From NCBI GenBank assembly GCA_030655535.1, contig JAURVK010000003.1, positions 1-35,831 on the forward strand: a stretch of 35,831 bases of DNA, in the 5' to 3' direction. The notes below the pieces were generated by a model that did not search any database, was not told the DNA's origin, and saw nothing but the letters and a program-made list of their open reading frames with translations. Both the position numbers and the translations under genes were made by a program. Of this stretch, positions 2,239 through 33,266 are shown one piece after another. This DNA comes from Methylobacter sp. (GTDB lineage: Bacteria > Pseudomonadota > Gammaproteobacteria > Methylococcales > Methylomonadaceae). The first letter of the stretch is position 1, and every line of letters starts with the position of its first letter.

Positions 2239-3150
2239 GTGGGTCGTATAGCCATTTTTACCGATGATCCCGGCTGGCATGGCAAGCAATTGAGCCTGGC
2301 TTTTGCCAGTCGGGGTTATGCCTGCGATTACGTTTCGTTGACTCAATGCCGCTTTGTCATTGAGCCCGGCCAATTGCCGATCCTTATTCCAGGCTTTGAG
2401 CAGGCGCTGCCCGATGCGGTTTTTGTGCGCGGCGTGCCCGGCGGTTCGCTTGAAGAAGTTGTGTTATATCTGGATATTCTGCATGCGCTAAAGGCGATGG
2501 GCATTCCCGTCTACAATGACGGCCATGCGGTTGAGCGCAGTGTCGATAAAGCGATGACCAGTTTTCTGCTGCATCATGCCGGCTTGCCAACGCCGATGAC
2601 CTGGGTGTTGCGTGACCGGGAACAAGCGTTAAGGATTGCGGAAGCTGAATTAAAGCAGGGTAATCTGCTGATCAGCAAACCCTTGTTCGGCTCGCAGGGC
2701 GAAGGCATACGCCGCATTGAAAAAACGACCGACTTATTCTGGTTAACCGGCAGTCATGGCGTTTATTATCTGCAACGTTTCGTTCAATGCGAAGGCGTCG
2801 GTTTTTCCGATAATCGCGTTTTTGTGATTAACGGCCTGGCGGTTGCCGCAATGCGCAGGCGCGGAAAATTCTGGCTGAATAATGTTGCCAGGGGCGCGAC
2901 CTGCGAGCTGATCGATTTGGATCCCGACATGGTCGACTTGGCCGTTAAAGCGACGACTGCATTGGCGATGGATTATGCCGGCGTCGATATTATTCGCGAT
3001 AGGGAAGGGCGTTGTACGGTCATTGAAGTTAACAGCATACCGGCATGGAAAGGGTTGGAAAGCGTTTGCGATGTCAATATTGCCGAGCTGATGGCCGATG
3101 ATTTAATCGCCCGCAAGATGGGCAAAACAGAGCTGTTTGCAGTCGCATGA
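2239..3150 (+). CDS. RimK-like ATP-grasp ligase (H4MPT biosynthesis)
   Basis: A 303-residue ATP-grasp protein of the RimK/alpha-L-glutamate ligase type. Visible features are the ATP-binding loop at about 148-162 (LISKPLFGSQGEGIRR), the strand VYYLQRFVQCEG, and the metal-binding motif near 258-268 (VIEVNSIPAWKGL). The PAWKGL ending is typical of the subgroup containing archaeal MptN (H4MPT:glutamate ligase) and the orf5 product of methylotroph clusters. Addition of glutamate or another amino acid to a cofactor is therefore likely, but the substrate is inferred from the family. The start is GTG at 2239 with only a weak ribosome site. Its stop overlaps the next gene's ATG by 4 bases, implying translational coupling. 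Confidence 0.85.
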   Translation: MGRIAIFTDDPGWHGKQLSLAFASRGYACDYVSLTQCRFVIEPGQLPILIPGFEQALPDAVFVRGVPGGSLEEVVLYLDILHALKAMGIPVYNDGHAVERSVDKAMTSFLLHHAGLPTPMTWVLRDREQALRIAEAELKQGNLLISKPLFGSQGEGIRRIEKTTDLFWLTGSHGVYYLQRFVQCEGVGFSDNRVFVINGLAVAAMRRRGKFWLNNVARGATCELIDLDPDMVDLAVKATTALAMDYAGVDIIRDREGRCTVIEVNSIPAWKGLESVCDVNIAELMADDLIARKMGKTELFAVA

Positions 3151-4029: not shown

Positions 4030-4115
4030 ATTTGTTTAAAACAAATAAGGGGACATTTAAAGTGTCGATAGTAGATTCAATTTTTTCATTTTTTTCTTCA
4101 CAGGGGACATTAAAC
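4030..4115 (+). promoter_or_regulatory. fae leader with duplicated ribosome-binding module
   Basis: A perfect 8-bp inverted repeat (ATTTGTTT / AAACAAAT) spans 4030-4046. It is followed by AAGGGGACATTTAAA (4047-4061) and, 54 bases later, the near copy CAGGGGACATTAAAC (4101-4115) directly before the fae ATG. The first copy precedes a GTG at 4062 that is in frame with fae, with no stop between. The second copy is taken as the real ribosome site because the ATG at 4116 gives the usual Fae N-terminus. Confidence 0.6.
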
Positions 4116-4625
4116 ATGGCTAAAATCAATAAATTATGCGTTGGCGAATCTTTAATCGGCGAAGGCAACGAAGTTGCTCACATCGATTTAATGGTAGGAC
4201 CACGCGGTTCAGCTGCTGAAACAGCATTCGCAAACTGCTTAACAAACAACAAAGACGGCTTTTCTAGCTTATTGGCTGTTGTTGCGCCTAACTTGATGGT
4301 AAAACCTGCCACTGTTATGTTCAACAAAGTAACCATCAAAGGCGCAAAACAAGCTGTTCAAATGTTTGGCCCAGCACAACGCGGTGTTGCTATGGCTGTT
4401 GCTGATTGTGTAGAAGACGGCACAATCCCTGCTGCTGAAGCTGATGATTTATTCGTATCAGTCGGTGTGTTTATTCACTGGGCTGCAGAAGACGATGCTA
4501 AAATCCAACAATACAACTACGAAGCGACTAAAGAAGCTTTGAAACGCGCTATTGCAGGTACTCCTACTGCTGCTGAAGTTGTTGCTGCTAAAGGTACTGC
4601 TGTACATCCATTCGCTGCTAACTAA
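4116..4625 (+). CDS. fae: Formaldehyde-activating enzyme
   Basis: A 169-residue protein that is a full-length Fae. It carries the N-terminal [17 protein letters not shown], the active-site region [20 protein letters not shown] with the conserved His at residue 22, and the [19 protein letters not shown] segment. Fae condenses free formaldehyde with H4MPT to methylene-H4MPT in the cytoplasm, the entry step of the pathway that Mch continues. The gene prefers a narrow set of A/T-ending codons (GCT, AAA, GAA) unlike its neighbours, and has a strong ribosome site and terminator, all signs of very high expression. It is separated from the upstream biosynthetic genes by a 120-base leader and probably has its own promoter, although no convincing -35/-10 pair was identified. 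Confidence 0.97.
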
Positions 4626-4768: not shown

Positions 4769-5479
4769 TTATCGTTTACAGTTTATCGACTGCTCAAGCT
4801 CAGCAATATCGTCCGTGCCAATAGTGCCGTGATGCAAAGCACTGGCAACCAGTGCCTGATGAATTCCCGCTGCGCTTAACGCCAATAAATCTTGTGTATC
4901 TCTAATGCCGCCTGCGGCAATAAAGTTTTTGTCAGGATGTTGTCTGCAAAACTCAGCTAACTTGTTCAGATCGGGGCCATGGTTGCTACCTACTCGCTCC
5001 AGCGTCATGATGATGATATTCTTCGGCCAAAAACCGGAGTCGGAAAAAAGACTAGGCGCACCCAATGCAGTTGAATTTGAATAATCCAGCGACAGGATGA
5101 AGTTGTCGTTATAGGCTTTAATTTCCGAAATAGTTTCATCCCGATAGGATTCGCTACCCAAAACAGGCAGTGTGTTGCAGGGATGTTGTGGGTTCCGGGC
5201 GTATTTTTGATAACCCCGGTCTATCCAGAAGGTTATTTGCGGAAAACGAGTCAAAACGTCAGTGATCAAATGATGATGATCACCCTGACGGGTAATCGCA
5301 TTCAGGTCTGCAATATAGAAAGTATCAAACTCATAAATACCCAGGAAGGCCTTAATAACCTGAAAAATATCAGGCGACTTGCACAAGGCCGTGTTAATGG
5401 CTTGATAGTGTTCACGATTGCCTTGCCTGGCATGAACGACGACACCGTCTTTTAAATCGATTACCGGTATTATTTTCAT
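4769..5479 (-). CDS. HisA-like TIM-barrel protein of the H4MPT cluster
   Basis: A 236-residue HisA/HisF-related protein. It keeps the HisA-type N-terminal strand IPVIDLKDG with Asp8, YIADLNAI with Asp58, Asp132 in ILSLDYSNS, and two phosphate-binding turns (IAAGGI near 187-192 and LVASALHHG near 210-218). No other histidine genes are present. The family of HisA-related proteins (distinct from true HisA) co-occurs with methanogen and methylotroph C1 genes. A sugar-phosphate or aminofuran-type isomerase/aldolase step in cofactor synthesis is therefore a fair guess, but the reaction is unknown to me. It is convergent with fae and divergent from the MfnD-MfnF-like fusion. Its upstream region is filled with repeats. 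Confidence 0.8.
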   Translation of the reverse strand: MKIIPVIDLKDGVVVHARQGNREHYQAINTALCKSPDIFQVIKAFLGIYEFDTFYIADLNAITRQGDHHHLITDVLTRFPQITFWIDRGYQKYARNPQHPCNTLPVLGSESYRDETISEIKAYNDNFILSLDYSNSTALGAPSLFSDSGFWPKNIIIMTLERVGSNHGPDLNKLAEFCRQHPDKNFIAAGGIRDTQDLLALSAAGIHQALVASALHHGTIGTDDIAELEQSINCKR

Positions 5480-5490
5480 AAAAAACAGGG

Positions 5491-5650
5491 TTCAAGGCCA
5501 AAGCCGGCTTTGCCTACAGGGATGTAGGTAAGGGGCGTTAGCAGGAGCGGAAGCTTTGCCTACAGGGATGTAGGTAAGGGGCGTTAGCAGGAGCGGAAGC
5601 TTTGGACTCCAAAAATTACAAACGCCGGAGTTCAAAGCTGGCTTTGAACC
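5491..5650. repeat. Nested repeat: 46-bp tandem unit inside a palindromic element
   Basis: Two tandem, essentially identical 46-base units occupy 5512-5557 and 5558-5603. Each begins with the hairpin CCTACA-GGGA-TGTAGG and ends AGCTTT. They sit inside a larger palindromic element: CCAAAGCCGGCTTT (5497-5510) on the left, and GGACTCC followed by GGAGTTCAAAGCTGGCTTTGAAC on the right. The left half-palindrome and each unit share the joining bases GCTTTG. A third, diverged copy of the unit lies inside rlmL at 25519-25569. The element fills most of the intergenic space between divergent genes. Confidence 0.85.
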
Positions 5651-5696: not shown

Positions 5697-7739
5697 GTGA
5701 AAATTCTGGTGTTTGAGTATATCACTGGCGGCGGCTTTGATAAGCAGGAGCTGCCGGATTCTCTGATTGGTGAAGGGAGCTTGATGCTTAATGCGCTGCT
5801 CGAACACCTAATTCGATTAAACTATCTTGAAATCACTGTGATGCTGGATTGGCGGTGTAACAAGTTGATCGGAGATAACGGCATAAACACCGTCATCATC
5901 AAGCCTGGACAGGATATTACTGAAGAATTTGCGCGATGTGTGAAGCAAGTCGATTTAGTCTGGCCGATAGCGCCGGAATTTGACGGTATTTTACAAGCCC
6001 TGTGCCAAACGGTGGCCTCATTGGACAAGATATTGCTGACATCGCCTGCATCCGCCGTTGCCATTGCCGGTAACAAGTTCAAGACTTATGAACTGCTCAG
6101 TCAGCACGCTATCAGCGTTGTTCCTAGCCGTATGCTCGACGATGAATATTCCCCCGGTGAATGGATGATTAAACCGGTTGATGGCGTAGGCTGTGCAGAC
6201 AGCTATGTCGTCAGCAATCGGCAAGAGTTCGAACAGATGACTGCCCGGAAAGGCAGGTTCATCATCCAGCCGCATCTTCAAGGAGCGAAAACCAGTCTTT
6301 CATGTTTATTCAAGCAAGGTCGCGGCTGGTTAATATGCGTCAATTGTCAGCGCTTTGAACTGATTAATCGGCAATATCATTTGACCGAAATCGACGTTAA
6401 TCATCATCCCGATCTTGGCTCATACCAGACTGTGATAGCTGAAATAGCCCTCGCTTTGCCTGAATTATGGGGTTATGTCGGCATCGATTTAATAGAAAGC
6501 GCCGAGCAAACATGGGTGCTTGAAATAAATCCCCGTCTAACCACTTCATTTGTCGGTATATACGACGCTTTAGGCGTCAATGTTGCCGAAGCTGTGATGC
6601 AATTATTGCAGGGCGAACCGGTACTCAATCCGACTTGCAATAAGCCCATTACCGTTCAAACACAACAGGCATCCGTAGGGGCGACCGGCCGGTCGCCCCT
6701 ACAACATGTAGGCTGGGATATAGGCGGCGCTCATGTTAAAGCGGCAGTCATCAGCGCCGGTAATATCATCGGCGTTTATCAGCAACCGTGCCCGTTATGG
6801 AAAGGTCTGGATCAACTGACAATCGCTGTCAACGCGATTATGCAGGAACTGGCTGAGGTGAATTATCATCATGCCATCACCATGACCGGCGAACTGGTCG
6901 ATTTGTTTGATAATCGGGATGATGGCGTTAAGCAAATCATTCAAACGATGACCGGCCTGTTGCCGGGGTATGAACTGCTGGTTTTTGCAGGTCAGCAAGG
7001 CTTTCTAAAGCCCTCACAGATTGAAGCCCGGCATTATGCGTCCATCGCCTCTGCCAACTGGCTGGCCAGTGCCTCATTTGCCGCACAAAAAATCAACAAC
7101 GGGCTTTTTGTCGATTGCGGCAGTACCACTACCGATATACTGCTACTCAATGACGGACAAGTGCTGGCGGAAGGTTACACCGATTATCAGCGCTTACTCT
7201 CTGAAGAGTTGATTTATACCGGTATCGTCAGAACCGCAGTGATGGCCGTTACGCAAACAGCGCTGGATAAAGGCAAAAAAATCGGTTTGATGGCCGAATA
7301 TTTTGCGACCATGGCCGATGTCTATCGCGTCACCGGCGAACTCAATGATACACATGATCAAACCGACACCGCAGATGGTGCGGAAAAAACAATCCTCGCC
7401 AGCGCCAGACGCTTATCGCGGATGATAGGTTGTGATTTTTATGCCGATGAACTGCCGCGCTGGCAACAATTTGCTAAAAATATTCGTGGCCAGCAAATAC
7501 AGCAAATACAGCGCGGCTGTGAGCATCGGTTATCCCAATATGAGCTTCCGTCAAACAGCCCCTTGATCGGTGCCGGAGTCGGGCGCTTTCTGGTTAAACA
7601 GATGGCATTAAATTTAGATCGTCCGTATCTGGATTTTTCCGATTTATTTCCGGCAGCCGCAATTCAGTCCGATATGACCGCAGCTGACTGCGCTCCTGCT
7701 GCCGCAATAGCTTATTTAGCGAACAGATCAGGCAGTTAA
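5697..7739 (+). CDS. Fused MfnD-like ATP-grasp ligase and MfnF-like protein
   Basis: A 680-residue two-domain protein. The N-terminal part (about 1-325) is an ATP-grasp ligase starting VKILVFEYITGGG, with the ATP loop WMIKPVDGVGCADS and metal motif WVLEINPRLTTSF. It resembles the COG1821 group that includes archaeal MfnD, tyramine:L-glutamate ligase of methanofuran synthesis. The C-terminal part (about 337-680) starts VGWDIGGAHVKAAVI and has GLFVDCGSTTTDILLL and PLIGAGVGRFL. This is the hydantoinase-like H4MPT-linked C1 transfer pathway family, to which I assign MfnF (joins the furan unit to glutamyl-tyramine). Residues 327-336 are encoded by a perfect 28-base palindrome at 6675-6702, exactly at the joint. 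The GTG at 5697 is chosen from the N-terminal similarity. An upstream GTG at 5652 would add 15 hydrophobic residues. The ribosome site is weak. The domain identities are recognised by eye; the substrate (tyramine or tyrosine) is open. Confidence 0.82.
   Translation: MKILVFEYITGGGFDKQELPDSLIGEGSLMLNALLEHLIRLNYLEITVMLDWRCNKLIGDNGINTVIIKPGQDITEEFARCVKQVDLVWPIAPEFDGILQALCQTVASLDKILLTSPASAVAIAGNKFKTYELLSQHAISVVPSRMLDDEYSPGEWMIKPVDGVGCADSYVVSNRQEFEQMTARKGRFIIQPHLQGAKTSLSCLFKQGRGWLICVNCQRFELINRQYHLTEIDVNHHPDLGSYQTVIAEIALALPELWGYVGIDLIESAEQTWVLEINPRLTTSFVGIYDALGVNVAEAVMQLLQGEPVLNPTCNKPITVQTQQASVGATGRSPLQHVGWDIGGAHVKAAVISAGNIIGVYQQPCPLWKGLDQLTIAVNAIMQELAEVNYHHAITMTGELVDLFDNRDDGVKQIIQTMTGLLPGYELLVFAGQQGFLKPSQIEARHYASIASANWLASASFAAQKINNGLFVDCGSTTTDILLLNDGQVLAEGYTDYQRLLSEELIYTGIVRTAVMAVTQTALDKGKKIGLMAEYFATMADVYRVTGELNDTHDQTDTADGAEKTILASARRLSRMIGCDFYADELPRWQQFAKNIRGQQIQQIQRGCEHRLSQYELPSNSPLIGAGVGRFLVKQMALNLDRPYLDFSDLFPAAAIQSDMTAADCAPAAAIAYLANRSGS
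6675..6702. repeat. Perfect 28-bp palindrome at a protein domain junction
   Basis: GTAGGGGCGACCGG followed immediately by its exact reverse complement. It is translated in frame as VGATGRSPLQ (the last codon runs two bases beyond it) and separates the MfnD-like and MfnF-like halves of one coding region. The same sequence type occurs at 934-1017, 11305-11330 and 21614-21697. Confidence 0.92.
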
Positions 7740-11172: not shown

Positions 11173-11304
11173 GACGTTTTGTGAAGTAAATTTTCTTTAA
11201 TTGAAGCACGGCTTCATTCATCTGGCAATGTTAAAAACCAAGACATTGTAATATAAAGTGATTTTTTTGTGTTTGTTGGCGCAACATTTGCTTGTATTGA
11301 AACT

Positions 11305-11330
11305 AGGGCGACCTGCCGGATCGCCCCTAC
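11305..11330. repeat. REP-like palindrome, degenerate
   Basis: AGGGCGACC-TGCC-GGATCGCCCCT is a near-palindrome with one unpaired base, followed by AC. It is the same family as 6675-6702. It lies between the divergent sigma-54 activator and methyltransferase genes. Confidence 0.65.
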
Positions 11331-14324: not shown

Positions 14325-15359
14325 ATGAAAGTTCGTTCGCTAGTTGCTATTTCGATTTTATGGTCCGCTATCAGCGGCATCGCTAATGCTACGACCTACA
14401 CCTTGCCGGAAAACAGCAATGACAGTGTCATCACCCAATTCCATGACGACGTGCCTTTAACCCGTGCGGAACAAAACGAGACCTTACCGGATGTGGCCAG
14501 GCGCTTTCTGCTGGGACAAACGGAAATAGTGCGGTTGAACCCCGACGTTGATCGTTGGCAAGTCAAAAAGGATGAGGTTGTTCGTTTAGCCAACAGACGT
14601 ATCTTGCCGGATACGCCTCACGAAGGCATTACCTTAAATATCGCCGAATACCGGATGTATTATTATCCACCGACTCAAAAAGGAACGGTAATGTCCTATG
14701 CACATGGCATAGGCAGGCAAGACTGGAAAACGCCTTTGGGTAAAACCAGCATTGTGCGCAAAGTCAAAGATCCGTCGTGGCATCCGCCGGAATCAATCAG
14801 GCGCGAACATGCGGCAAATGGCGATCCGCTGCCTGCTGTCGTTCCACCGGGTCCGCATAATCCTCTGGGAGCCTACAAGATGCATCTGGCCGTTCCCGGC
14901 GGCTACCTGATACACGGCACCGATATTGACAAGATTTACGGCATAGGGATGCAGATAACACACGGTTGCGTGCGTATGTATCCTGAAGATATTGAAGCCT
15001 TGTACAATTCGGTTCCGGTAGGAACGCCGGTCTATATGGTCAAACAGCCAATCAAGGTTGGATGGTTGGACAATACGCTTTATGTAGAAGCGCATCCCGA
15101 TTTGGAGGGAGAGGAAACAACGTTGGATCAAAAATTCGATGTAGCGTTGACGCTGATTCAAAAAGCCAATATCGCCAGGGATGGCGTGTATGCCGCAAGC
15201 CGGCCGGGAACTGGCGTGCCTGAGTTTGACCGGGAAGCATTAAAGCAAGCGCTTACCGCTCTGGACGGAAATCCGGTGGCGCTTTATCAAAGATTGCTAC
15301 AGAAAGACTTGCCGGTATCGTTGCCGACCGGTCATGGTATTGAGCAAGGGTATTTGTGA
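14325..15359 (+). CDS. L,D-transpeptidase (YkuD family), exported
   Basis: A 344-residue periplasmic enzyme. Residues 1-22 form a signal peptide ending ANA. A LysM-like segment follows at about 50-90 (ETLPDVARRFLLGQTEIVRLN). The YkuD catalytic region has HGTD (His197) and ITHGCVRMYPED with His213 and nucleophile Cys215. Such ErfK/YbiS-type enzymes attach lipoproteins to, or cross-link, peptidoglycan at meso-diaminopimelate. A C-terminal stretch of about 90 residues lies beyond the catalytic domain. It starts 50 bases after the DUF2182 gene and is convergent with the HtpX-like gene. Confidence 0.93.
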   Translation: MKVRSLVAISILWSAISGIANATTYTLPENSNDSVITQFHDDVPLTRAEQNETLPDVARRFLLGQTEIVRLNPDVDRWQVKKDEVVRLANRRILPDTPHEGITLNIAEYRMYYYPPTQKGTVMSYAHGIGRQDWKTPLGKTSIVRKVKDPSWHPPESIRREHAANGDPLPAVVPPGPHNPLGAYKMHLAVPGGYLIHGTDIDKIYGIGMQITHGCVRMYPEDIEALYNSVPVGTPVYMVKQPIKVGWLDNTLYVEAHPDLEGEETTLDQKFDVALTLIQKANIARDGVYAASRPGTGVPEFDREALKQALTALDGNPVALYQRLLQKDLPVSLPTGHGIEQGYL

Positions 15360-21613: not shown

Positions 21614-21697
21614 GTAGGGGCGACTTTAGTCGCCCAGGGCGAATATAAATTTGCCTCCACAGGCAGATTATAGGGGCGACCGAACGATCGCCCCCGA
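21614..21697. repeat. Pair of REP-like palindromes between convergent genes
   Basis: GTAGGGGCGACTTTAGTCGCCC (21614-21635) has a 7-base stem (GGCGACT/AGTCGCC). GGGGCGACCGAACGATCGCCCCC (21673-21695) has a similar stem. An imperfect GGCGAATATAAATTTGCC lies between (21638-21655). They occupy nearly all of the gap between convergent genes and may act as transcription stops. Confidence 0.8.
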
Positions 21698-25178: not shown

Positions 25179-27529
25179 TCTTTAATTCTCCAGCAATAAT
25201 GGATTTTTGGATTGCGGGCAAAATCTTCCGGTATTGTTGCCGCGCTGATGTCTTCTACGATGAAATCAGACAATGCCTGTTTGTCGATTTTAAAACGTCT
25301 GAAGTTGGTAGAAAAGTATAGGACACCTCCCGGCGACAGCAAGGAAATGGCGTTATTAATCAGTTGTACATGGTCGTTTTGTATGTCGAACACTTCGTCC
25401 ATCCGTTTCGAATTGGAAAAAGTCGGCGGATCAAGAAAAATCAAATCGTAGTGTCTGTTAGCCAGTTGGGCTTCAGTGTTTAGCCATTCCAGACAATCGG
25501 CCTGGATAAATTCATGCGCGCCTACAGGGATGTAGGCTAGGGGCGTGAGCTGGGAGCGGCAAGCTTCGCCTTCGTTAGCATTCAGCGCCAGGTTCTTTTT
25601 TGCCCAGTTGATATAGGTATTGGACATATCGACTGTCGTCGTCGATGCTGCGCCCCCCATTGCCGCATGAACTGTCGCGCTGCCGGTATAAGCAAACAGG
25701 TTTAAAAAGCTTTTACCTTTGGCCTGTTGCTGAATCATCATGCGTATAGGCCGGTGATCGAGGAATAATCCGGTATCCAGATAATCTTCAAAATTCACCA
25801 GTAACTTGCAGCCGCCTTCTTCAATAATGTGAAAACGCCCCTGATCGCCGTGTTTTTCGTATTGATCGGTACTTTTTTGCTTGCGGCGTATTTTCAGGAA
25901 CACCTGATCGCTATTGACGCCAAGTACCCGAGGTATTTCGGCCAATAGCCCCGCTAGTCGCTGATCGGCTTTGTGCTGATCGATGCTTTTTGGCGGTTCG
26001 TATTCCTGCACATTGATCCAGGTTTCAGAGCCTTGATAAATATCGACAGCGACCGCGTATTCCGGCAAATCGGCATCATAGACCCGATAACAAGTGATGT
26101 GATTTTGCTTAACCCATTTGGACAGTTTTTTCAGGTTCTTTTTGAGCCGGTTGGCGAACATCTCCGCCGCGACGGGCTCAGCGACATCTCTGTCGGCGAA
26201 ACTTACCTCTCCCGAAACACTGGCTTCCTTGTCGGTGCCGGTAGTCTCAAGTTGCGGAGTCGGTCGAATCTCGGTTGTTTGCGTAATTCGTTGTTCCTGC
26301 GCTTTGCTGATCTCGGTTGCTTGAGCAATGCGCTCTTTCTGGGTTCTGGCCTTAGGGATAAAGAAATTGCTTGGTTCAATATCCAGTCGTAACAGTTTGC
26401 ATTCGAGCGCGCCGTTAAACAGGGTAATCGGTTTTTGCGAGCGTATGCCTAAGCGAAAGCCCAGTTCCGGGTTGCTGATGATCATCGCGGCTTTCCAACC
26501 GGTAAAATGCGCCTTGAGCGATTCGCCGAATTTTTTGTATAACTCAGCCGTTTCCTGCTCGTCGCCCAAGCGTTCGCCATACGGAGGGTTACAGATCAAC
26601 AGGCCGGGGTTCCAGCTTTCGGCAGGTTCCGCGTCTTCAATATCGCGGCGCTCAACATGAATCTTATTTTGCAGACCGGCATTGGCTATATGTGCCAGAG
26701 CAGTGTTGACGGTATGGCGATTTTGATCGAAGCCTACAATAACCGGTAATTTTTCCAGGCCGATTTTTTTACGTTGTTCGGCTTCTGCGCGTAATTTTTT
26801 CCAGCATTGCGCATCGTGTTTTTTCCAGCCGGTAAAGCCGAAATAATCGCGTAACAAACCGGGTGCATAATCGGCGGCGATCATCGCGCCTTCCAACAGC
26901 AGCGTTCCGGAACCGCACATTGGGTCTATTAATGAACCCTGTTGCTTGGCGATTTGGGGCCAACCGCTACGCAATAACATCGCCGCCGCCAGATTTTCTT
27001 TCATCGGAGCTTTGATATTGACGTCCCGATAACCGCGGCGATGCAGGCTTTCGCCGGAAAGATCCAGGCTGAGCTGAGCGGTTTCGCCATTCAAATAAAC
27101 ATTGATGCGGATATTGGGCTGTTCGGTGTTAATGCTGGGCCGGGTTTGAAACTTCTCCCGCATCTGATCGACGATGGCATCTTTAACTTTTAAGGCGCCA
27201 AAGTGGGTGTTGTTAATCGCCTCCGAGTTTTTCGCGCTGAACGACACCGCAAAGCTGTCTTCAGGATTAATATGTTCAAACCAGTCGATTTTTTGTACGC
27301 CGTTATAAAGATCTTCCTGGGTTTTTACCTCGAATGAGCTGAGCACCAGTAGGATGCGATTTGCGGTTCTTGACCACAGGCAGGCACGATATGCGGTCTC
27401 CAGATCGCCCTGAAAAGCGACCCCGGCCAGAGTGGCCTTGATATGGGTTATGCCGAGTGCGCGGAGTTCATCGCTAAGGATGGTTTCCATCGCTTTGGGG
27501 GTGGTGGCAAATAGTTGGTAAGTGGGCAT
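25175..27529 (-). CDS. rlmL: Bifunctional 23S rRNA methyltransferase RlmKL
   Basis: A 784-residue protein that methylates 23S rRNA at G2445 (N2, RlmL half) and G2069 (N7, RlmK half). An N-terminal THUMP domain (about 45-155) precedes the first methyltransferase (SAM loop IDPMCGSGTLLLEGA, catalytic NPPYGERLG). The second methyltransferase is C-terminal (LNLFAYTGSATVHAAMGG, DPPTFSNSKRM). It is about 80 residues longer than E. coli RlmL. Two inserts explain this: a low-complexity linker of about 60 residues between the halves with a 14-residue tandem repeat (ERIAQATEI.. / QRITQTTEI..), and about 17 residues (654-670) encoded by the repeat at 25519-25569. The start at 27529 lacks a good ribosome site. 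Confidence 0.95.
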   Translation of the reverse strand: MPTYQLFATTPKAMETILSDELRALGITHIKATLAGVAFQGDLETAYRACLWSRTANRILLVLSSFEVKTQEDLYNGVQKIDWFEHINPEDSFAVSFSAKNSEAINNTHFGALKVKDAIVDQMREKFQTRPSINTEQPNIRINVYLNGETAQLSLDLSGESLHRRGYRDVNIKAPMKENLAAAMLLRSGWPQIAKQQGSLIDPMCGSGTLLLEGAMIAADYAPGLLRDYFGFTGWKKHDAQCWKKLRAEAEQRKKIGLEKLPVIVGFDQNRHTVNTALAHIANAGLQNKIHVERRDIEDAEPAESWNPGLLICNPPYGERLGDEQETAELYKKFGESLKAHFTGWKAAMIISNPELGFRLGIRSQKPITLFNGALECKLLRLDIEPSNFFIPKARTQKERIAQATEISKAQEQRITQTTEIRPTPQLETTGTDKEASVSGEVSFADRDVAEPVAAEMFANRLKKNLKKLSKWVKQNHITCYRVYDADLPEYAVAVDIYQGSETWINVQEYEPPKSIDQHKADQRLAGLLAEIPRVLGVNSDQVFLKIRRKQKSTDQYEKHGDQGRFHIIEEGGCKLLVNFEDYLDTGLFLDHRPIRMMIQQQAKGKSFLNLFAYTGSATVHAAMGGAASTTTVDMSNTYINWAKKNLALNANEGEACRSQLTPLAYIPVGAHEFIQADCLEWLNTEAQLANRHYDLIFLDPPTFSNSKRMDEVFDIQNDHVQLINNAISLLSPGGVLYFSTNFRRFKIDKQALSDFIVEDISAATIPEDFARNPKIHYCWRIKE
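25519..25569. repeat. 46-bp type REP unit inserted in rlmL
   Basis: This stretch matches the tandem unit at 5512-5603 at most positions, including the hairpin CCTACA-GGGA-TGTAGG and the motif GAGCGG..AAGCTT. On the coding strand it is read in frame as GEACRSQLTPLAYIPVG inside the RlmK domain, just before the conserved HEFIQADCLEW. Confidence 0.85.
26268..26351. repeat. 42-bp direct repeat in the rlmL linker
   Basis: ATCTCGGTTG at 26268 recurs at 26310, and the following bases are similar for the whole 42-base period. It encodes two imperfect 14-residue repeats in the linker between the two methyltransferase halves. Confidence 0.75.
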
Positions 27530-31305: not shown

Positions 31306-32331
31306 TTAAACCCCAGCGTATTTTTTCTTATCCCGCCCCAACCAAAAATCAGTCGCCAGCTGCTGAGCCTGTTCCTGCGTATCAGCCTTGCCCAACAACT
31401 TAAGCGCAATAGCAGCCGTGCCGATGATGGAGGCTTTTGCAAAATCATCTTCCACTTTTCCCTGCCAGATTAACGCCAGTTGCTCAGGCTCAAGCAGCTC
31501 GGGTTTGACGTGCCGGAGCCTAAATAAAGCGGGCCAGTTTTCGTCGGATAGTTCGCCGTTGTGTACGCTTTGCACCAGGCATTCCATATCGGGATTACGT
31601 TCGGTTTCGCCGCCTTCGCCTTTTAACACCGCCATATGCGACTGGTTTAAAAGAGCAGCGGCTTGCTGATGCACGGGACGGTAACCGGGATGGAAGATGC
31701 CCTGGATGCTGTGTTGCGCATTAAACGGGTTCAACAAGCGCACCAGCGTGTGTACCGGTGAGCGCAAACCCAGAATCGGGCGCAGTTCGATAATTTCATG
31801 CAACTTGGGGCAAAAATGCTCCAGCGATAAATAACTGAAATGCTGCTGTTCAAGCTGCTGTTTGGCATCCGCAATAGAGCTTGCGCATTTGATACCCAAA
31901 TAGCCCAGCATGTTTTCGGTGTATAGTCTGCCTGCGGTATGGCCGCTGGCGCCGTGCATAAAAACGGTAATGCCGTTTTCAGCCAGCAGCAAAGCCGACA
32001 GCAAAAACCAGGGCAGATGCCGACGTTTTCCGGCATAAGACGACCAGTCCAGATCGACTTTTACGGCATTGTCGGCAATATCGAATGATTCCCGAGCCGC
32101 TTGGGCGAAACCGGCCAATTCCTCAGGGGTTTCTTCCTTGACGCGCATCAGCATCAGGAATGCTCCCAGCTGAACCGGCAGCACCTGATCGGTCAGGATC
32201 ATGTGCATCGCGCGATAGGCTTCATCCTGGGTTAGCGGTCTTGAGCCTTTTTTGCCTTTACCCAGGATGCGGATGATTTCTGCGAACGGATGTTCCGGGT
32301 GCGGCGTTTGTTCGTGATGGGTAAATGTCAT
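31306..32331 (-). CDS. ybiB: YbiB, TrpD2-like DNA-binding glycosyltransferase family protein
   Basis: A 341-residue protein of the anthranilate phosphoribosyltransferase-like family. It has the N-terminal helical domain (LTQDEAYRAMHMILTDQVLPVQLGAFLMLMRVKEE) and the core segments MHGASGHTAGR, ELRPILGLRSPVHTLVRLLNPF and VLKGEGGETERNPD. The catalytic glycine-rich signature of true TrpD (GTGGD) is absent. E. coli YbiB binds nucleic acids and is induced by DNA damage; its exact job is unclear. No other trp genes are near. Its start overlaps the cyoE stop (ATGA). Confidence 0.9.
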   Translation of the reverse strand: MTFTHHEQTPHPEHPFAEIIRILGKGKKGSRPLTQDEAYRAMHMILTDQVLPVQLGAFLMLMRVKEETPEELAGFAQAARESFDIADNAVKVDLDWSSYAGKRRHLPWFLLSALLLAENGITVFMHGASGHTAGRLYTENMLGYLGIKCASSIADAKQQLEQQHFSYLSLEHFCPKLHEIIELRPILGLRSPVHTLVRLLNPFNAQHSIQGIFHPGYRPVHQQAAALLNQSHMAVLKGEGGETERNPDMECLVQSVHNGELSDENWPALFRLRHVKPELLEPEQLALIWQGKVEDDFAKASIIGTAAIALKLLGKADTQEQAQQLATDFWLGRDKKKYAGV

Positions 32332-33266
32332 ATTGCCAGGGATGGTATGTATGCCGCAAGACTGCCGGGAGCAGTCGCGGCGAAGGTAAATTTAAAATAA
32401 TGGTCGACTAACAAAGCAATAAACACGCCGGTCAGGTACATCAGCGAATAAAAGAAGGTTCGCATCGCGGTTTTGTCATCTTTCCGGCGCATCATCAAAA
32501 TGGCGAAATAAATAAAGCCGAGACCCAACGGCACCACCGCAAGCAAATAAATCAGGCCGCTCATGCCGGTCAGATAGGGCAGCAGGGTAACGATAAACAG
32601 CAGCAGGGAATACAGCAGAATATGCAGCCGGGTATATTCCACGCCGTGGGTGACCGGCAACATCGGGATGCCGACTTTGGCGAATTCTTTTCGTTTGGCG
32701 ATAGACAGCGGCCAAAAATGCGGCGGCGTCCAGGCGAAAATAATCAAAAACAACAGCAGCGCGTAAGGATGCACTTCCCCGGTCATCGCGCACCAGCCCA
32801 GCATCGGCGGCGTGGCTCCGAAAGCGCCGGCAATAACGATATTTTGCGGGGTCATTCTCTTTAGATAGACCGTATAGATAATCGCGTAACCCAGCGCCGA
32901 CAAAAAAGTCAGCAATGCGGTTAAGGCATTGACCATGAATATCAGCAATGCCATCGAGATAAGACCCAACGCCAACGCAAAAACGATGACATTGGTAGAG
33001 CTTAATTCGCCTTTGGGTAAAGGACGGTGTTTGTTGCGATCCATCAGCGCATCGGCTTCGCGGTCGATATAATGATTAATCGCGGCGGCGGAGGCGGCGG
33101 CCAGTGCAATTCCTAAGCTGCTGTAGATAAACAGGCCGATAGGCGGTATTCCGGGCACGGCTAGTAACATCCCCGCAATAGCCGTAAAAACGATCAGGGC
33201 AACCACTTTGGGTTTGCATAACTCAAGATAACTTTGCCAGGAAGGCCGGGGGGATTCGCTAGTCAT
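32328..33266 (-). CDS. cyoE: Protoheme IX farnesyltransferase (heme O synthase)
   Basis: A 312-residue inner-membrane prenyltransferase of the UbiA superfamily with about nine membrane spans. The polyprenyl-diphosphate site NHYIDREADALMDR (Asn64, Asp68, Asp72, Asp76) and the second motif region YTVYLKRMTPQNIVIAG are present. It attaches a farnesyl group to heme b, giving heme O for terminal oxidases. Here it is apart from the oxidase genes, and ybiB follows by a 4-base overlap. Confidence 0.96.
   Translation of the reverse strand: MTSESPRPSWQSYLELCKPKVVALIVFTAIAGMLLAVPGIPPIGLFIYSSLGIALAAASAAAINHYIDREADALMDRNKHRPLPKGELSSTNVIVFALALGLISMALLIFMVNALTALLTFLSALGYAIIYTVYLKRMTPQNIVIAGAFGATPPMLGWCAMTGEVHPYALLLFLIIFAWTPPHFWPLSIAKRKEFAKVGIPMLPVTHGVEYTRLHILLYSLLLFIVTLLPYLTGMSGLIYLLAVVPLGLGFIYFAILMMRRKDDKTAMRTFFYSLMYLTGVFIALLVDHYFKFTFAATAPGSLAAYIPSLAI

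Follow-up and report, generated by a model that had tools for sequence, protein, structure and literature searches.

Two lines of earlier work bear on the locus described here. GTAG-type REPs are short palindromes tagged with GTAG that occur in many copies and can lie in frame inside genes, including those for tRNA synthetases and recBCD, as described in PMC3733652. The repeat reported here begins with GTAG and is a short perfect palindrome, which also fits the group-3 REPs as outlined in PMC8266576. In Rickettsia, palindromic elements (RPEs) are translated in frame within proteins in the same manner (PMC10969869). On the enzyme side, archaeal MfnD (model NF040722) and MfnF (NF040623), whose domains are homologous to those described below, catalyse consecutive steps of methanofuran synthesis (PMC8141765). 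The available text of that paper gives Orf9 as the bacterial homologue of MfnF and Orf1 (Mfla_1650) as a paralogue of MfnD; Methylomicrobium album, which makes the tyrosine-type methylofuran, also has an MfnD paralogue. Bacterial Orf9 and the MfnD homologue are proposed there for consecutive steps. Orf9 is placed after the step that makes a Glu-Tyr or Glu-tyramine dipeptide, with the order left partly open, and the enzyme joining tyrosine and glutamate is called unknown. Decarboxylases other than MfnA may exist, according to the same source. When M. capsulatus was grown on methane, guides against the H4MPT route were depleted, as reported in PMC13108547.

We found a Methylobacter locus in which a REP has very probably fused two adjacent methylofuran-synthesis genes into a 75-kDa two-domain protein that would retain both jobs, with the joint present in three REP-rich genomes. 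In the window (the whole stretch of 35,831 nucleotides analysed), a stop-free frame with a GTG start runs from 5697 to 7739 on the forward strand and translates into 680 residues (74.7 kDa). Its N half (5697–6674, forward; PF02655 and PF18301), an ATP-grasp ligase akin to MfnD and bacterial Orf1, has Pfam matches to ATP-grasp_3 (8.3e-26, residues 124–284) and preATP-grasp_3 (1.7e-23, residues 44–121), and PF02655 (ATP-grasp) gives 91.4 bits against a gathering cut-off of 23.2. The C half (6708–7736, forward) matches Hydantoinase_A (3.7e-14, residues 393–640). The initial annotation had read this frame as an ATP-grasp ligase joined to the MfnF-like family and had proposed TIGR03123 (H4MPT-linked C1 transfer protein, Orf9) as a model to run; that reading is borne out, as TIGR03123 matches residues 338–675 with 330.6 bits, above its cut-off of 244.1. 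The archaeal equivalog models score far lower than their own cut-offs, NF040623 (MfnF) with 152.8 bits on the C half (cut-off 520) and NF040722 (MfnD) with 114.8 bits on the N half (cut-off 400). Thus, the MfnD-like and MfnF-like placement of the two halves holds as homology, and family membership suggests that they correspond to Orf1 and Orf9; because both halves score under the equivalog cut-offs, the exact substrates of the fusion can only be proposed. Between the halves lies a perfect 28-nt palindrome, GTAGGGGCGACCGGCCGGTCGCCCCTAC (6675–6702, codons 327–336), translated as VGATGRSPL(Q). The same joint is found in two further genomes, on contigs JANYKK010000010.1 (L031, genome G201) and JAURZV010000002.1 (L032 or L007, genome G083), so it cannot be put down to a single faulty assembly.

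The genes around the fusion fit the 'archaeal-like' cluster described in PMC8141765. They include mch for methenyl-H4MPT cyclohydrolase (1237–2229, forward; TIGR03120, 443.8 bits), fae for the formaldehyde-activating enzyme (4032–4625, forward; TIGR03126, 245.1 bits), a gene for an MptN-like glutamate ligase (2239–3150, forward), which scores 200.2 bits with NF040720 (below the cut-off of 350) and 168.4 bits with TIGR00768 (over 143.4), a HisA/HisF-family gene (4769–5479, reverse; PF00977) and a second ATP-grasp gene (80–1240, forward). From family and gene order, the ligase, the HisA/HisF-family gene and the second ATP-grasp gene are candidates for MyfB/Orf5, Orf17 and MyfA/OrfY, respectively. 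The second ATP-grasp gene itself contains two related REP units in frame, one of another sub-family at 935–955 (GGCGACTTCAGTCGCC) and its inverted partner at 969–996. Comparison of L032, L044, L046, L047, L052 and L053 shows that this pair is present in some Methylobacter and absent from others; in L032, the REP region of this gene holds an in-frame TAG. Other repeats were seen as well. Two exact tandem 46-nt units lie just upstream of the fused gene (5507–5598), with a weaker copy at 25515, and an IARDGVYA-type repeat occurs within ORFs at 15169–15216 and 32330–32377 (two copies, 83% identical). A similar peptide, DGVYAG/DGVNAG, adjoins REPs in three ORFs of G201, including DnaN and ComEC. 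The fused gene of G083 (L032:8001–10199) contains, besides the REP, an in-frame insertion of RAMQGAIA repeat units, about 46 residues long, at about residues 268–315 of the product, within the ATP-grasp domain and just before TWVLEIN. In M. tundripaludum SV96 (L053), too, this gene is longer.

We then compared the joint with its relatives. Across 23 Methylobacter genomes, the two genes are separate in 17, fused in three, represented by a fragment in one and without a match in two. In all 17 separate pairs the arrangement is the same: the genes overlap by 11 nt, counted from the first base of the second gene's ATG to the last base of the first gene's stop codon. Separate genes in relatives lacking the palindrome had been predicted, and this is what the 20 readable joints show: 17 are separate and have no REP core, and three (the window genome G000, G201 and G083) are fused and have the REP. 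Among 95 locus rows holding both halves, which include some genomes twice, only five have no stop between the halves, and these come from the same three genomes (window/L001, L031 and L032/L007). An old joint, that of L043, reads ...CAGGAAGCCAATGCAAGCTAATGTC|GTAGGCTGG, and the fused joint of L031 reads ...CAGACGTCC-GTAGGGGCGACCGGCCGGTCGCCCCTAC-AATAT|GTAGGCTGG; the net gain of 17 nt puts both genes in one frame. The REP takes the place of about 10–11 nt that had contained the stop codon of gene 1 together with the start codon of gene 2. The proposal that a repeat insertion removed a stop and spliced two adjacent genes thus stands as to the fusion at the REP, but a mere interruption of the stop does not describe the joint, in which the start was replaced too.

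Since the REP replaced the overlap, the second domain has no start codon of its own. In the window, no in-frame ATG, GTG or TTG was found around this domain from -102 to +132 nt, and the nearest in-frame starts are at -87 and +57 in L031 and at -111 and +135 in L032. The second domain can therefore hardly be started alone, and the fusion is likely to make only one protein in the cell. The other proposal, that the REP lengthened the linker of an older fusion, finds no counterpart in wider scans. No REP-free fusion occurs among the matches listed for 201 genomes of the family and 301 of the order; these extend down to about 420–430 bits, and weaker fusions could be missed. A scan of 397 genomes of the phylum, 20 of which have a match, also gave no other fusion. 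In five of the 19 other matching genomes the halves lie side by side, all in different frames by the listed coordinates, and in most of the rest only the C half matches, so that in some it may be fused to a ligase that has diverged too far for the search to detect.

The palindrome belongs to a multi-copy family; the initial annotation had stated that the family is present elsewhere in the window. The pattern TAGGGGCGACN6GTCGCCCCTA (up to three mismatches) has 37 sites in the 2.76-Mb draft genome of the window and the reversed pattern has none, so the palindrome at the joint is not due to chance. The GTAG start, the short palindrome and the many copies place the family among the GTAG-group REPs. 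Within the window, related copies lie at 11304–11330 (70% identical) and 21671–21697. With one mismatch allowed, 10, 22 and 37 sites occur in the fused genomes and 1, 4, 0 and 0 in the unfused G138, G180, G110 and G042, respectively; the REP-rich genomes among these seven are the fused ones. In the window genome, 14 of the 37 sites are traversed by an open frame of 120 codons or more and the other 23 are not, a count made with no random control. At two of the 14, in front of pyrF and msbA, the true start probably lies downstream of the REP, so we omitted both from the intragenic list. Four of the five perfect copies in this genome are intragenic, lying in the genes for IleS, PBP1A, an Hsp70-like protein and the fusion. 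In-frame REPs are also present in DnaN, MurE and ComEC of G201 and in RelA/SpoT of G083. We identified IleS proper in 20 of the 23 genomes; the window genome has 78 nt where the 19 others have 63 nt, indicating that the 28-nt REP occupies the place of about 13 nt. For Fmt, three of 11 genomes have the REP and eight sites are REP-free, and for PBP1A the REP is present at five of the eight loci read (11 in all). Most of the 69 sites of the three fused genomes lie outside long frames, above all in G083. The fusion linker is one of numerous places where these genomes tolerate a REP, and the REPs in unrelated genes may mean that tolerance, not selection for fusion, explains the fused gene. We scanned ten other ORFs with in-frame REPs for further fusions, and each is apparently a single gene. 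A RAYT search gave 12 PF01797 matches; at the eight loci read, one half-unit lies about 1 kb off and no unit is adjacent. Some REP arms are changed symmetrically, as if the palindromes had corrected themselves: GTTGAGG...CCTCAAC at L199 (fmt of G174) and GTAAGGG...CCCTTAC at G083:C59 and C67. Many of the G083 REP loci among L241–L265 have a common flank, translated as CGHC...VA, and seem to lie inside a longer repeat.

We next asked how three genomes came to have this joint. Trees were built from 23, 21 and 20 chosen rows. The tree of the joined halves groups L031 with the unfused L047 and L032 with the unfused L053 (98/97 each), leaves the window sequence unplaced and rejects a single clade of fused genes (p-AU 6.8e-72); its backbone is weakly supported. 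The N-half tree supports the same two pairs (100/98 each, the bootstrap being not quite settled). In the C-half tree, L031 is again with L047 (95/98), L032 is unplaced and the window sequence groups with the unfused L044 and L046 (91/93). The IleS tree likewise parts the window genome, grouped with the unfused G138 and G156 (88/85), from G083, grouped with the unfused G144 (90/90); this partner of G083 differs from its partner in the mfn tree.

Our tentative first choice, given a little less than an even chance, is that the REP was inserted once and that a very short joint of about 50 nt then spread between species by homologous recombination. The joints have much in common: the spacing of 15-28-5 nt is identical in all three, the 5' flank ACAGACGTCC is common to L031 and L032, and the codon after the joint is GTA in all three, compared with four of the 17 unfused joints and none of the nearest unfused relatives of the fused genomes. 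Other REP sites are common as well, since four of ten in G000 are found in G201 and/or G083. However, there is no longer tract of raised identity that such a transfer might have left. Identity near the joint tracks the nearest species rather than the fused partner (over the 100 nt that precede the REP on its 5' side, L032 is 93% identical to L053 and 83% to L031), and nothing around the joint points to recombined DNA extending over more than about 100 nt.

This lack of raised mutual identity among the fused genomes is what one would expect if REPs had been inserted independently, at the same boundary nucleotides, in three REP-rich genomes. Such a hot spot is a credible but less probable origin, at roughly one chance in three. 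The pairing of L031 and L032 with different unfused relatives, the rejection of one fused clade, the IleS tree and the REP counts all agree with it. In addition, the joint of G083 carries another version of the REP, with both arms altered alike (GTAAGGG...CCCTTAC), and one further exact copy of this version exists in G083. The identical spacing, the flank of L031 and L032 and the GTA codon nevertheless speak for a single origin of the joint. From these observations we infer how the joint spread among the three genomes, leaning slightly towards the spread of one joint over about 50 nt and placing repeated insertion second. An early fusion in the genus that was later split apart many times is improbable: the poorly supported backbone of the gene tree would leave room for it, but all 17 unfused joints have the 11-nt overlap free of any REP remnant, so an old fusion would need this overlap restored again and again.

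The sequences of both halves show constraint. In six pairs with fused members, dN/dS ranges from 0.095 to 0.275, compared with 0.109–0.194 in four unfused pairs. Two N-half values exceed the unfused range (window–L044, 0.232; L032–L053, 0.275), so selection on the N half of fused genes may be slightly relaxed. The 12 unfused rows share 168 invariant residues, of which the window protein retains 165, that of L031 165 and that of L032 162. Both halves look selected on this evidence. An assembly artefact or a pseudogene in decay is very improbable, for although none of the three fused genomes is beyond the draft stage (the window genome 87.8% complete, L031 and L032 from MAGs) and two pairs have a slightly elevated dN/dS in the N half, the assemblies are separate, dN/dS is well under 1 in both halves and the invariant residues are retained.

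An AlphaFold model of the fusion (mean pLDDT 84.1) has two folded domains. The only inner stretch below 50 is residues 324–334, and the REP codes for residues 327–336; the REP-encoded linker of about ten residues is thus probably flexible. The mutual placement of the domains is not predicted (pTM 0.54). The C half matches the folds of 3cet and 3c0b and the N half that of 3df7 (TMt 0.81). In the mRNA, the REP is predicted to form a 12-bp hairpin. Judged from the conserved domains, the fused protein would retain both predicted activities and is probably bifunctional, combining two consecutive enzymes of methylofuran synthesis. Because the genes were neighbours even before, their fusion lends this function little independent support. 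It might also channel the intermediate between the two steps, as the initial annotation had suggested. As for the substrate of the ligase half, the archaeal tyrosine decarboxylase model TIGR03812 (MfnA) finds no protein over its cut-off in any of the 23 genomes of the genus, with weaker matches in all 23.

In the explanation that we prefer, a GTAG-type REP took over the short stretch at which two neighbouring genes overlapped. Sequence comparison shows that the ATP-grasp ligase gene (Orf1/MfnD-like) thereby lost its stop codon and the MfnF-like gene (Orf9) its start codon, and that both came into one frame, which encodes a 75-kDa polypeptide with two conserved enzyme domains on a REP-encoded linker. 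The protein may ligate glutamate to tyrosine (or tyramine) and then join the product to the furan pyrophosphate F1-PP. The joint is present in three REP-rich genomes that form no clade, either because recombination passed on its short sequence or because REPs land there repeatedly. A more far-reaching version seems doubtful to us: the same fusion would have been made several times at one boundary, REPs replacing a target of about 10–13 nt (about 13 nt were lost in ileS) would be recurrent gene-fusing devices, and the product would act as a bifunctional methylofuran synthase, its ligase half supplying the missing tyrosine:glutamate ligase.

This locus, for which close relatives represent both states, offers a clear before-and-after case of a mobile palindrome that turns two overlapping genes of consecutive pathway steps into one protein. 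Mobile repeats can thus weld enzymes together, and the movement of REPs, their choice of site and the benefit of the fusion become testable. The fusion also ties an MfnD-like protein to Orf9 in a genus without MfnA over the cut-off, where the tyrosine:glutamate ligase, if needed, is the one that PMC8141765 calls unknown; this tie is no more than suggestive, as the two genes already lay next to each other before they fused. One combined literature search on in-frame gene fusion by a REP at a stop codon gave no paper. Intragenic REPs and in-frame Rickettsia elements have precedents; the REP described here differs in that it joins two genes, in place of a stop and a start. The GTAG REPs described in PMC3733652 lie within single genes or supply a TAG stop. 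The RPEs as described in PMC10969869 are about 150 bp long; we liken the window REP to them by mode of action and do not file it as an RPE. Archaeal MfnD and MfnF are separate proteins, from whose equivalog models the bacterial halves are far removed in score. Orf1 and Orf9 of methylotrophs are likewise treated as separate proteins in the available text of PMC8141765, whereas in the window their putative counterparts are fused into one.
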